Assembly (NCBI GenBank): GCA_018238155.1
Contig: JABCTZ010000006.1
Location: forward strand, 71,321 to 135,320
Length of the DNA: 64,000 nt
Direction of reading: 5' to 3'
DNA from: Candidatus Heimdallarchaeota archaeon
GTDB taxonomy: Archaea > Asgardarchaeota > Heimdallarchaeia > JABLTI01
Shown here piece by piece: positions 42,259 through 64,000 of this stretch; position 1 is the first letter of the stretch, and every line of letters begins with the position of its first letter. Under the pieces are notes generated by a model. The model made no database searches, was not told the DNA's origin, and saw only the letters and a program-made list of their open reading frames with translations. The position numbers and the translations under genes were made by a program.

Positions 42259-42783
42259 CTAACGCAATATTTTTGCTTTACAAACTGGACAATTTTTCAT
42301 AGTAGTAAACCAAATCATTAGATTTATTTTATCAAAATATGATTTGCATTGAAGGCATTGTAAAACATCCCGATCTGTTAATATTGGTATTCTGCTAACT
42401 GTACAGATATATTTCTTCTTTTTTACTTTTGCAATATTCATTTTTTTGATTTTTTCTAAATCTTCTTCTGAGAATTTTTTAGTTAATTCTTCAACATCTA
42501 TTTGCTTTCCATTACTTTTTGTTTGAATTAATTGTTCTTGATATTCTGCTTCGATCCTTTGATTTCTTTCCTCTCGTGTTTTTTTTGCCTCTTTCCGAAT
42601 TTCAAATATGATCCCCAAAATTATTGGAATTAAACTATTTAATGCTGTAATTACTAAAATAAATAATTCCTTCAAATTTATAGCTAAAACTATTCCTATT
42701 ATCCAATTAAGAATGAAACAGCTGAAAGCTAATACAATTTCTTTAGTTGGTTTTAGCATTCGTTTCCATTTTGCTCTTCTCAT
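42259..42783 (-). CDS. Two-TM protein with a degenerate RING-like C-terminus
   Basis: The 174-residue protein has two hydrophobic segments (about 14-36 and 40-60), then a charged linker (EIRKEAKKTREERNQRIEAE) and a C-terminal finger: CTVSRIPILTDRDVLQCLQC, KSYFDKINLMIWF and CPVCKAKI. Aligned to the RING proteins at 59-61.7 kb it keeps Cys 1, 3, 4, 7 and 8 but has Ser, Asp and Asn in place of Cys 2 and both His. It can hold at most one complete zinc site. Same topology as those paralogs. ATG 42783. Confidence 0.7.
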   Translation of the reverse strand: MRRAKWKRMLKPTKEIVLAFSCFILNWIIGIVLAINLKELFILVITALNSLIPIILGIIFEIRKEAKKTREERNQRIEAEYQEQLIQTKSNGKQIDVEELTKKFSEEDLEKIKKMNIAKVKKKKYICTVSRIPILTDRDVLQCLQCKSYFDKINLMIWFTTMKNCPVCKAKILR

Positions 42784-59135: not shown

Positions 59136-59792
59136 TTGCGTAGAATTAGAAATAAAATATCCAGACAAGTAAGACGAGGGAGAAGACCATATAATGATTA
59201 TGAATCAGATTCTTTTTGGCATAAATCGTTAGCATATAAAATAGGCATAATTGCTATCATCATTTTAACTCTTATCGGTCCAATAATAACTATAATCACA
59301 GCTTTGCTATCCCTGTTAAAAGAACACTCTGAAATGAGAGTTATCGTCCTTTTGGTTATTTCCGTTGTGGTCATGCTTATTGGGATATTTACAATGCTTT
59401 ATCTAACAACTCGAAATAGAAAGAAAAGGAAAAGAAGAAGAGAAATAAGAGAAGCAGGTTTGGATCGATTGGAGGATGGCGAGGAAGCGATAACCGTAGA
59501 AGAATTCGAAAAACGTTATTCACAAAGACAAGTAGCACAAATGGTAGAAAGGAGACCTGTGTTAGAAATATTGAATGAAATACCATTAAATGAGTTGTTG
59601 TTAGGAAAGATGGTTTTCAAAGGAAAAATACTAAAAGAAGATAAATGTGCCATTTGCAAATTGAGTGTCAAGAAAAGTCAGAATATAGTCCAATGCCCAA
59701 AGTGTCTAAATCTATTTCATTATGAACATCTAAATTCTTGGTTTAAGAATAACAAAAAATGCCCTGTATGTGGTGAAATAAAGGAAATATGA
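59136..59792 (+). CDS. Two-TM protein with C-terminal RING-like finger (1)
   Basis: The 218-residue protein has a basic N-terminus (residues 1-25), two TM segments (about 30-56 and 67-90), and a basic linker with a conserved EAGLDRLEDGEEAIT motif. The finger (from Cys 171) is CAICKLSVKKSQNIVQCPKC, LNLFHYEH, ..SWF.., CPVC: spacing C-2-C-11/12-C-2-C-4-H-2-H-10-C-2-C, eight ligands as in cross-brace RING domains, plus the hydrophobic/Trp positions used for E2 contact. Probably an E3 ubiquitin-ligase-like protein facing the cytoplasm (inference). TTG 59136 has a TGAGGAT site. Confidence 0.82.
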   Translation: MRRIRNKISRQVRRGRRPYNDYESDSFWHKSLAYKIGIIAIIILTLIGPIITIITALLSLLKEHSEMRVIVLLVISVVVMLIGIFTMLYLTTRNRKKRKRRREIREAGLDRLEDGEEAITVEEFEKRYSQRQVAQMVERRPVLEILNEIPLNELLLGKMVFKGKILKEDKCAICKLSVKKSQNIVQCPKCLNLFHYEHLNSWFKNNKKCPVCGEIKEI

Positions 59793-59848
59793 ATCATCAT
59801 TATACTTGCAAAACACCATTAGAAAAAGAAGAAAAAATCAGCAAACCA

Positions 59849-60157
59849 TTAATAACTGCGGCGGAAATCCCTGGTAGCAGAAACACCACGGTGGGTTTCT
59901 TTCAATTGTTTTTCAATTAAACGACCATAAGGGCTAATGAGGACACTACCAACAATAAGATGGGTGCGGTCATTTTTAGAGAGACCATCTTCATTAAATA
60001 GATACTCAAAAGAAGCAGAGATGCTACCATCATGCAATTCCTTCATTTCCATGATCGTGAGCTCCTCGAGCTCATATTCAAGCTTCAAGGGGTCAGCCCA
60101 ACCAGTTTCATCGTGGATATACCGAAGGATGACTTTCTTGGCTTCTTCGAAATTAAT
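59849..60157 (-). CDS. Small protein of unknown function, likely ATT start
   Basis: The open frame runs 102 codons up to an ATT at 60157, which has a perfect GGAGGA site seven bases upstream and a TATA-like ATAAAATTAT before it. No ATG/GTG lies in the first 30 codons; the first TTG is at 60088 and would delete NFEEAKKVILRYIHDE, a clearly coding stretch. The protein is acidic with LELEELTIMEMKEL-like hydrophobic spacing and ends TRDFRRSY. It is antisense to the RING cluster. Family unknown. Confidence 0.6.
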   Translation of the reverse strand: MNFEEAKKVILRYIHDETGWADPLKLEYELEELTIMEMKELHDGSISASFEYLFNEDGLSKNDRTHLIVGSVLISPYGRLIEKQLKETHRGVSATRDFRRSY

Positions 60158-60467
60158 AGTGATTCCTCCAACAATTAATATTAGTTATGAATGATTATAA
60201 TTTTATCCCATAAACAAACTAGTTGATAAATGATTTGTGACAAAAAAAGACCCATTGAAATAATAATTATTGGTTAGGAACAGAAAGGGAAATAAATACA
60301 AAGTGAAGAATAATGATTAGTTAGCTTATTAAGTCTAGAGAAACAAATTTGTATAACAGGAAAATTAGGGAAAGAAAGAATTCTTATTGGGATAAACTTT
60401 AGCTGAACATAATAAAGATCGTTTTTGGAAAGATAAATATGAATCAATTCGAAAAAAACCTTTAGCA

Positions 60468-61052
60468 TTGAAAGTAGTAATTATCATGGCATTTCTAGTA
60501 CTATTTGTAGGGATTGTTGGAACACTCATCTCATTACTTGTATTTGGTATAATTAATAATTCAAACGGAATGGTGATGATTATTATGCTACTTGTATTTT
60601 TAATACCAGTAGGTATTGGGACAATGATTTTTTTTATCCTTGAAATGATGGGTGGAATAGATCAAAATAGTAGAAAAGAACGAAAAAGACGAAAGCAAAT
60701 AAGAGATGCCGGATTGGACCAATTAGAGGAAGGAGAGCAGGCAATATCTCCTGAAGAGTTTGAAGAAAAATATAACCAAAGGCAGACAATGAGACAAAAT
60801 AATGAAAGAAGAAGACCGGCAATAGCCATACTGAATGAAAGACCATCAAATGAAACAATGCTGAAGAAAATGACCTTCAAAGGAAAAATAACCGGGGAGA
60901 AATGTTCGATATGTAAATTAGATCTGAGGAAAAAACAGCGAATTGTTCAATGCCCGTATTGTTATGCGCTGTTTCATTATGATCATTTGTATAATTGGTT
61001 GGAAAAAAATAACAATTGCCCGGTATGTAGTAAAGAAATAGTAGAAGAATGA
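60468..61052 (+). CDS. Two-TM protein with C-terminal RING-like finger (2)
   Basis: The 194-residue protein has two TM segments (about 5-28 and 35-60), a basic linker with RDAGLDQLEEGEQAIS, and the finger CSICKLDLRKKQRIVQCPYC, YALFHYDHLYNWLE, CPVC. Paralog of the preceding gene along the whole length. TTG 60468 gives almost no N-terminal tail, but open sequence upstream (RFWKDKYESIRKKPLAL) resembles the paralog's FWHKSLAYK region, so the true start may lie further 5' with a non-standard codon or a shift. Confidence 0.8.
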   Translation: MKVVIIMAFLVLFVGIVGTLISLLVFGIINNSNGMVMIIMLLVFLIPVGIGTMIFFILEMMGGIDQNSRKERKRRKQIRDAGLDQLEEGEQAISPEEFEEKYNQRQTMRQNNERRRPAIAILNERPSNETMLKKMTFKGKITGEKCSICKLDLRKKQRIVQCPYCYALFHYDHLYNWLEKNNNCPVCSKEIVEE

Positions 61053-61083
61053 TTGCCTGTATGTAGAAAGAAGAGGAATTGAA

Positions 61084-61680
61084 ATGGCGAGAAAAATAAA
61101 ACCAGAAATAGCAAAAAAGATGATGCAAGCTTTTGCTCTATTTATTTTTGTTTTTGGATTAGTGTTGTTGTTGGTTGTGACAAAAATATTTCCTGGCGAT
61201 GAAAGAGAGGATTTTAATTATACTCTCGCAATTGTGCTTCTGGGAAGTTTTACTATATGTTCAATTGTAGGTTTGATTGTCTCGTTCGTTATTTACTTGG
61301 AAAAAAAGAACGCGTTTGCAGAAGAAAGAGGAAGAAGATTACAAAGAGCAAATGACCGACAATTAGCAAATCTATTACTTGAAACAGATCTATTAATTAA
61401 CGATAGTAGACGAGAAAGATCGGGAGCGGAGAAAAAAACATCCACTTTAAAAACGAAGAGAGAATACAATATAACGAATTACTATGGAGACGATAAAAAC
61501 AAAAAATGTTCAATATGTAAATTAGAGCTAAGAAAGAGACAACAAAAAGTACAATGTAATAAATGTTTGAGTATCTTTCATAAAGAACATTTGGAAGATT
61601 GGTTGGAAAACAAGGATTCTTGTCCAGTGTGTAACGAGAACATAGTGGATATAGTCGCAATTGTGAAAGAAAGTAATTAA
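61084..61680 (+). CDS. Two-TM protein with C-terminal RING-like finger (3)
   Basis: The 198-residue protein starts at ATG 61084 with a GAGGAATTGA site, 31 bp after the previous gene. Two TM segments (about 10-38 and 50-76) are followed by a long charged linker and the finger CSICKLELRKRQQKVQCNKC, LSIFHKEHLEDWLE, CPVCNENI. All eight ligands are present. The linker differs from those of copies 1 and 2, so it has diverged further. Co-transcription with copy 2 is likely. Confidence 0.83.
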   Translation: MARKIKPEIAKKMMQAFALFIFVFGLVLLLVVTKIFPGDEREDFNYTLAIVLLGSFTICSIVGLIVSFVIYLEKKNAFAEERGRRLQRANDRQLANLLLETDLLINDSRRERSGAEKKTSTLKTKREYNITNYYGDDKNKKCSICKLELRKRQQKVQCNKCLSIFHKEHLEDWLENKDSCPVCNENIVDIVAIVKESN

Positions 61681-61707
61681 CAAAGAACAAAAGTGGTATG
61701 GTATGCT

Positions 61708-61962
61708 ATGATTGAACAAGAATCAGAACAACCGGAACAAGAAAAACCATGGGAAAAAAGAGAAGAATCGCTGAAAACAAGAATAGCATTCTTTGTTGGG
61801 GGGTCAATTGCAACAATAATCCTAGTAGTAGCGCTATTTGCAAATAATTATCACTCAACAGAATTCATAAAAACAATTAGCATCGTAGGAGGGTTAATTC
61901 TCCTGTCTGCAATAATAATAGTAGTGGCAATAAAAGTACAAAGAAAGAAAAAAGAAATTTAA
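61708..61962 (+). CDS. Two-TM protein without a finger
   Basis: From ATG 61708 (the frame begins at GTG 61693) the protein has 84 residues: an acidic start (EQESEQPEQEKPWEKREES), two TM segments (IAFFVGGSIATIILVVALF and ISIVGGLILLSAIIIVVAI), and a KVQRKKKEI tail. It lies 27 bp after RING gene 3 in the same direction and matches the membrane part of the RING proteins in topology, lacking the finger. It may be a partner or regulator (inference). Confidence 0.6.
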   Translation: MIEQESEQPEQEKPWEKREESLKTRIAFFVGGSIATIILVVALFANNYHSTEFIKTISIVGGLILLSAIIIVVAIKVQRKKKEI

Positions 61963-62714: not shown

Positions 62715-64000
62715 AGGTTCCGACACGCAAACGCCATCTGGGGGATGGATTGGCTCGGACGCCGATGAAGGACGTGGCTAGCTGCGATAAGCGCGGGGTA
62801 GCTGCAGGCAAGCATAGAACCCGTGATTTCCTAATGGGAACTCCTAATGCGAACCAATAAGTCGCATTACTCCGTAAGGAGGGGGAACGCACCGGACGGA
62901 AACATCCAAGTAGGTGCAGGAAAAGAAATCAACTGAGATGCCCAGAAGTAACGGCGAGTGAAATGGGCAAAGGCCAAACTGAATCCCCATACGCAAGTAT
63001 TGGGAAATGTAGTGTTACGGACTCTCTATTGAGCTCTGCGATGTGAAGCTGAATATCCTGGAAAGTTTAACCAAAGAGGGTGATAGTCCCGTAAGCGTAA
63101 GCATCCCAGAGTGTGAGAGTATCCTGAATAGCGGGGGTTGGAAATCCCTCGTGAATGGGGCACAACGAGCTCCAAGCCTAAATACGTTCCGAGACCGATA
63201 GCGCAATAGTAACGTGAGTGAAAGCTGAAAAGTAACCCGGAAGGGTAGTGAAAAGTGCCTGAAACCAGATGGTTATAGACGTTTGTGGCCCGAAAGGTAA
63301 GATCCTCCATGAAGAGAATGCTGGCGACAGCAAGATCGTTTGGAGGGGACCGGGGTCACAAGATCCGTCTAGAAACACGGGCCAGGGAGTTCATACTTGT
63401 GGCAAGCTTAAGTGATGTCAAAACCACGCAAGCGTAGCGAAAGCGACATGCCCGCAGTTTACAAGGGGCGCCGTCTGAAAGGGCGGGAAGTCACAGGTTT
63501 GAGACCCGAAACCGGACGATCTACCCCTGAGCAGGCTGAAGCCTAGGGAAACCTGGGTGGAGGGCCGAGCAAGTATTGACGTGCAATTCATGTTTGTTGA
63601 CTTGGGGGTAGGGGCAAAAGACCAATCTAGTCCGGTGATAGCTGGTTCCCAACGAAGTGGACATAGGCCAGCCTGCTCTGAGATGGAGCATTCGGTAGAG
63701 CAATGATTGATGGTTACGGGAAGTAAAATTCTCGCCTGTCAGTCAAACTACGAACGGATGTTTATCGTAGAAGAGTAGAGTCGGGCGTGCGTGCGTAAGG
63801 CACGTGGCCGAAAGGGGAATAACCCAGACTAAGGTTAAGGTCCCTAAATCTCGATTAAATGCTAAAATTGGAAGGACGTCATTGGACTAAGACAGTAAGG
63901 CGGTAGGCTTAGAAACAGCCACCCGCTAAGAAAAACGTAACAGTTTACTTACCGAGTCCTTTGGCTCCGAGAATGGACGGGGCTAAATCGAGTACCGATA
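62715..64000 (+). rRNA. rrl: 23S ribosomal RNA, 5' part
   Basis: The gene runs off the window end; about 1.3 kb is visible. Near the start are CACGCAAACGCCATCTGG and GGATTGGCTCGGACGCCGAT, then GAAGGACGTGGCTAGCTGCG, the archaeal form of the conserved 23S 5' region. Later, AGTAACGGCGAGTGAA and GGGTGAAAAG-type segments follow in the expected order. The exact 5' end is estimated. Open frames on the minus strand here are artefacts. Confidence 0.96.

Follow-up and report, generated by a model that had tools for sequence, protein, structure and literature searches.

Asgard archaea are already known to possess ubiquitin, small RING proteins, and an ESCRT-I that binds ubiquitin, and the gap in this picture is a writer of ubiquitin on archaeal membrane cargo. 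The small RING protein of Caldiarchaeum subterraneum (srfp) is an active E3 that depends on residues I30 and W58; in its finger C3 is shifted and an additional cysteine, C3B, is present (PMC5654768). Binding of ubiquitin in vitro has been shown for a Heimdallarchaeal UEV (PMC9192718). Described here is a cluster of three genes, R1, R2, and R3, which encode candidate membrane-anchored RING proteins in a Candidatus Heimdallarchaeota archaeon (GCA_018238155.1). The cluster lies in a stretch of 64,000 nucleotides, referred to below as the window, which corresponds to positions 71321-135320 of contig C1 (JABCTZ010000006.1) of this genome. A search of the open-access literature, with preprints and most subscription papers outside its scope, turned up no description of archaeal membrane RINGs.

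Architecture of R1–R3

All three proteins share one layout, in which two transmembrane (TM) segments with hydropathy of 2.6-3.1 (2.9 and 3.1 in R1) are followed by a charged linker and by a C-terminal finger whose ligands follow the order C2-C2-H2-C2. An earlier note, written from the letters of the window, had proposed this layout, which is confirmed by the open reading frames (ORFs), hydropathy, alignment, and Pfam; the four plus-strand ORFs and a minus-strand relative at 42259 are likewise found where that note had placed them (Table 1). The pairing of a RING with two TM segments does not arise by chance, because exactly two such segments are present in 9 of the 18 RING proteins of 110-450 amino acids (aa) in this genome, compared to 9 of the 174 others in this size range (Fisher p 2e-6). 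The loop between the TM segments is neutral or negative and, in most members, the flanks of the segments have an excess of positive charge, so that, by the positive-inside rule, the N and C termini would both be cytoplasmic. The region between R1 and R2 includes an ORF on the minus strand (59849-60170), the upstream part of which has no standard start codon; a stretch resembling it is also found upstream of a RING gene in a sister genome.

The finger and its predicted fold

The Pfam model zf-RING_2, with a cut-off of 27.3 bits, matches R1, R2, and R3 with 31.8, 33.0, and 31.0 bits (E 1.8e-7, 7.5e-8, and 3.2e-7, respectively), and exceeds that cut-off in none of 14 control genomes. In R1, the ligands assigned by alignment are C171, C174, C187, C190, H195, H198, C209, and C212. 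The hydrophobic and Trp positions to which E2 binding had been attributed are indeed present: Ile173, located between the first two ligands, and Trp202, located three residues past ligand 6, are invariant across R1–R3 and their aligned relatives, and the combination of Ile or Val with Trp is retained in 63 of 72 fingers. A linchpin Arg or Lys, which many active E3s have and others lack, is found in 28 of these 72.

In the AlphaFold2 model of R1, a pair of long hydrophobic helices precedes a C-terminal domain, with a predicted local distance difference test (pLDDT) score of 84-90 in the RING region. When this model was compared with the PDB using Foldseek, the top 26 matches were all RING proteins with a probability of 1.00, nearly all of them RING-H2 E3s, including RNF13 and the E2~Ub-bound RNF165 (5ulk, root-mean-square deviation 1.2, TM-score by target 0.82). 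A fold other than RING had been named beforehand as the outcome that would speak against the proposal; AlphaFold2 and Foldseek instead predict a cross-brace RING. Comparison of the finger with RING and PHD families also favors RING, with Arkadia found by the sequence profile at 8e-10. A PHD or zinc-ribbon assignment was considered and rejected, as the PHD matches are weak (E 0.02-0.15) and the structural matches are to RING rather than PHD. No NCBIfam model suits R1–R3, the weak matches falling on TM stretches and far below cut-off.

Ubiquitin pathway and ESCRT in the genome

The same genome carries one ubiquitin gene, coding for 77 aa with the C terminus ARTEGG (50.8 bits), three E1-like genes of the ThiF type, and a UbcH5-like E2 of 157 aa (7e-25). 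The latter includes HPN, an active-site Cys, and, intact, both RING-binding loops, PFKPP in loop 4 and WTPA in loop 7. E2 matches over the cut-off are present in all 38 genomes of the same class that were searched, compared to 0/14 controls. Two further UQ_con matches were rejected as E2s, since they have no catalytic Cys and are UEV/Vps23-like. One UEV/Vps23-like gene precedes a Vps28 gene, and an EAP30 gene is located in the vicinity. With two Snf7 and two EAP30 genes in addition to UEV/Vps23 and Vps28, ESCRT-I, -II, and -III are all represented. At C7:198805-202212, a large protein with a Zn-ribbon and a RING is encoded; a weak match to EAP30 (ESCRT-II-like) lies some 3 kb away.

The strongest JAB gene (C41:41321-42199) codes for a JAMM protease of 293 aa in which the HTHP...SGTD motif is intact and a TM segment lies at the C terminus, and this tail-anchored enzyme is a candidate membrane deubiquitinase. 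Both the motif and the C-terminal TM segment recur in all of the first 22 loci read of this type (L174-L195), which belong to families f1, f3, f4, and f5; the relatives from family f2 and two from f7 have no such segment. Lack of E1, E2, and ubiquitin genes had been named in the earlier note as grounds for abandoning the proposal, and that objection fails because genes for ubiquitin, E1-like proteins, E2, and JAMM are all present. A separate region, C13:25800-28500 (L070:5683-8500), combines genes for a JAMM, an E1-like protein, a 103-aa ORF without a Pfam match, and a divergent E2-like protein; located away from the principal genes for ubiquitin and E2, it is possibly a second modifier system.

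Distribution of the RING family

The genome was read for RING genes, of which there are about 25. Its zf-RING_2 matches at E <=0.001 number 18, exceeded among the genomes listed only by G109, an Asgard genome of a different family with 26 such matches. Some of the large proteins of this genome that end with a Zn-ribbon and a RING show, by eye, WD40-like, HEAT-like, or TPR-like repeats. Among the sampled Asgard genomes, 102 of 148 contain zf-RING_2 at E <=0.001.

The layout with two TM segments, which the earlier note had proposed to count across Asgard genomes, recurs in the genus and in family f4 of the same class, and is sporadic in other classes. Relatives were fetched as best-scoring matches and do not represent censuses; among those from the genus, 22 have two TM segments before the finger and nine have none. 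The f4 proteins with two TM segments (L232, L233, L237, L240, and L241) include several with a C3H2C3-like RING-H2 finger (C-x-H) and a Lys after the last Cys, as in L232 (CALCTERIFGKDKVFQIETCNHLFHKECLYEWLNKNDTCPICKEK). Other Asgard classes include scattered RINGs with two or three TM segments (L207, L209, L217, and L222), and in one large family, f8, the RINGs are mostly soluble and N-terminal. The reverse arrangement, with the RING first and a C-terminal anchor, is found in further lineages of this class (L157, L159, L161, L166, and L168), and these tail-anchored RINGs branch separately in a tree of low resolution. The tree gives no support to the two-TM layout having arisen only once: based on 44 columns, and with most forks unresolved, it needs at least eight label changes as counted by its starred branches.

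Evolution of the cluster

The sister genome G008 contains a single orthologue of R2, 60% identical and adjoining the same glycosidase gene, as well as an R3-like relic. Beyond the listed start of R2, homology continues upstream for about 24 codons, to ~60399, with no standard start codon there. A paralogue on contig C8 of the genome under study has lost its membrane part.

The ratio of nonsynonymous to synonymous substitution rates (dN/dS) is 0.06-0.32 for the finger and 0.22-0.74 for the TM segments with the linker, these ratios being rough, with synonymous distances near saturation in several pairs. The value for the finger is lower in all eight pairwise comparisons, although the gap is only slight for R1–R2 and for R1 with the orthologue; it is 0.10-0.32 in the comparisons that include R1–R3, and 0.32 for the RING of R2 compared to its sister orthologue. 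As judged from these sequences, the history of the family is one of birth and death, in which the finger is conserved and the anchor drifts.

Additional features of the window

Table 1. Positions of the RING cluster, of its neighbor, and of the one-zinc variants (positions in the window unless a contig is named).
Feature	Position	Strand	Elements	Basis
R1, 218 aa	59136..59792	+	TM1 ~59241-59297, TM2 ~59340-59396, RING 59646-59771	ORF, zf-RING_2, hydropathy, AlphaFold2/Foldseek
R2, 194 aa	60468..61052	+	TM1 ~60474-60530, TM2 ~60573-60629, RING 60903-61028	ORF, zf-RING_2
R3, 198 aa	61084..61680	+	TM1 ~61123-61179, TM2 ~61225-61281, RING 61507-61632	ORF, zf-RING_2
Gene 4, 89 aa	61693..61962	+	Two TMs, no RING	ORF; directly downstream of R3
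42259 relative, 174 aa	42259..42783	-	Two TMs, one-zinc RING-like finger	
One-zinc RING variants	C43:18941-21097; C44:83921-84094; window 42259-42783		CxxC/CPxC site kept, most site-1 ligands gone	

Gene 4 is possibly co-transcribed with R3. The suggestion that it keeps only the membrane part of a RING gene is unproven: the two TM segments are there, but no similarity to R3 was detected by BLASTP, and its assignment as a truncated paralogue was rejected on this ground.

The protein encoded at 42259, described earlier as a degenerate relative, scores 17.5 bits with zf-RING_2, below the cut-off. Its finger keeps C1, CxxC, and CPxC, with Ser, Asp, and Asn replacing three of the four site-1 ligands. 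The protein is not simply decayed: its pattern resembles that of genus relatives. A similar one-zinc pattern is seen in two proteins from C43 and one from C44 of the same genome, as well as in one genus relative, and the position of the linchpin is occupied by Arg in the C43 and C44 copies and by Lys in the 42259 protein. Judged by their sequences, the one-zinc variants are a conserved subgroup in the genus. The AlphaFold2 model of the 42259 protein matches RING structures, the input alignment itself having contained RINGs.

The rRNA genes of the window are unlinked, with the 3' part of an archaeal small-subunit gene at positions 1-574 and the 5' part of the large-subunit gene at 62717-64000, about 62 kb apart.

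Proposed function and alternative explanations

R1–R3 are probably small membrane-anchored RING-type E3-like proteins that would bring the UbcH5-like E2 to the cytoplasmic parts of membrane proteins. The earlier proposal of membrane E3s with ubiquitin-type tagging at the membrane is thereby supported at the level of a candidate function, by the predicted RING fold and by the presence of an E2 with intact RING-binding loops. We infer the orientation, E2 binding, ligase activity, substrates, and ESCRT coupling of R1–R3 in their own organism, and the mechanism would be as follows. The two-helix hairpin would anchor the protein in the cell membrane, leaving both of its ends cytoplasmic, and the flexible charged linker would carry the RING finger at the inner membrane face. 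An E1-like enzyme would charge the UbcH5-like E2 with the GG-ended ubiquitin, and the finger would dock the charged E2, bringing it to the cytoplasmic parts of neighboring membrane proteins, which would then be tagged with ubiquitin. The target would be set by the fast-changing hairpin and linker, and catalysis by the conserved finger. The mark might be read by the UEV proteins of ESCRT-I, plausible readers since their Heimdallarchaeal counterpart binds ubiquitin in vitro, and removed by the tail-anchored JAMM protease. We can extend this, tentatively, to a membrane-local ubiquitin cycle in which expanding sets of RING E3s anchored by a hairpin or a tail would tag membrane proteins through the UbcH5-like E2, tail-anchored JAMM proteases would untag them, and ESCRT-I/II/III would sort the cargo, a prokaryotic counterpart in its logic to the quality control of membrane proteins and the endosomal sorting of eukaryotes.

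Several observations weigh against the assignment of R1–R3 as E3-like proteins. Their fingers are C4H2C2, with C-x2-C rather than C-x-H as the second pair, and do not have the canonical C3H2C3/C3HC4 spacing. The linchpin Arg or Lys after the last Cys is absent, its place being taken by Gly, Ser, and Asn in R1, R2, and R3, respectively, and the archaeal small RING is impaired when its corresponding residue, R69, is mutated (PMC5654768). The AlphaFold2 alignment for R1 consisted of seven sequences only, the model contains no zinc, and the Foldseek E-values are modest (best 1.9e-3) because the matched domain is short. The charge flanks of R2 are weak when the shorter start is used, and at the orthologous start of R2, where G008 reads TTG, the window reads TTA, so that R2 may have an internal start, may not be expressed, may have lost its start or use a non-standard one, or may reflect an assembly error. 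The cluster is unlinked to the ubiquitin genes, with ubiquitin about 100 kb away on the same contig, and the genome is metagenome-assembled, with 90.7% completeness and 5.9% contamination.

The missing linchpin would also suit a structural role, in which the RING serves as a docking module for membrane scaffolds, similar to the RING-like domains of GATOR2 and HOPS, and the residues facing E2 are kept for the fold. GATOR2 RING-like domains do occur among the lower structural matches, and the genome encodes large proteins with a C-terminal Zn-ribbon and RING. However, the best matches in both sequence and structure are active RING-H2 E3s, Ile/Val and Trp persist in the 63 fingers mentioned above, many family members elsewhere have a linchpin Lys or Arg, and the E1/E2/ubiquitin set is complete, all of which make a purely structural role unlikely. 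It is quite improbable that R1–R3 are ligase-dead or regulatory RINGs that capture or titrate E2 at the membrane or form one half of a heterodimer with an active RING, the one-zinc forms being the extreme. While the absent linchpin, the clade of one-zinc variants, and the relics and truncations, taken as relaxed copies, would fit such a role, the finger is under purifying selection and many eukaryotic E3s are active without a linchpin. That the cluster is a decaying set of duplicates with no current function is very hard to credit, despite the TTA at the start of R2, the single copy and relic left in the sister genome, and the truncated C8 copy, as all eight ligands are intact in R1–R3 and the dN/dS of their RINGs is 0.10-0.32.

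Lineage-specific, fast-evolving membrane RINGs and a conserved tail-anchored JAMM together offer a candidate writer and a candidate eraser. Membrane-targeted ubiquitylation and the diversification of E3s may have begun before eukaryotes, because membrane RINGs, ubiquitin, a UbcH5-like E2, a membrane-anchored JAMM-type protease, and ESCRT share one genome. R1–R3 are short enough for direct in vitro testing, and the f4 RING-H2 proteins with two TM segments and a linchpin-like Lys are perhaps the best targets for biochemistry.

Comparison with known systems

R1–R3 have in common with srfp (Caldiarchaeum, Asgard) a RING that occurs alongside archaeal E1, E2, and ubiquitin, the conserved Ile and Trp, and the same class of departure from RING-H2, with the third ligand shifted (PMC5654768). 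Whereas srfp is a small protein of a one-operon system, the finger of R1–R3 is fused to a two-TM hairpin and amplified, is unlinked to ubiquitin genes, and has no linchpin.

The plant ATL proteins resemble R1–R3 in their N-terminal TM helices, linker, and C-terminal RING, in a Trp located three positions past ligand 6, and in their lineage-specific expansion. Strict membership in ATL was rejected, as the ligand spacing differs, with C-x2-C as the second pair in place of the exact ATL RING-H2 (PMC3161093). The letters GLD, which belong to a motif that ATL proteins have between TM and RING, are found in the linker of R1 and R2 only, with GFD in the sister copy and no GLD in R3, so that their occurrence may well be due to chance.

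The first half of the finger partly matches Prok-RING_1 (PF14446), at 21.9-26.9 bits, below the curated cut-off of 29.1. The closest solved folds and sequences are those of the PA-TM-RING and Arkadia/RNF165-type RING-H2 E3s, from which R1–R3 differ in having no PA domain, another ligand pattern, and a two-TM hairpin.
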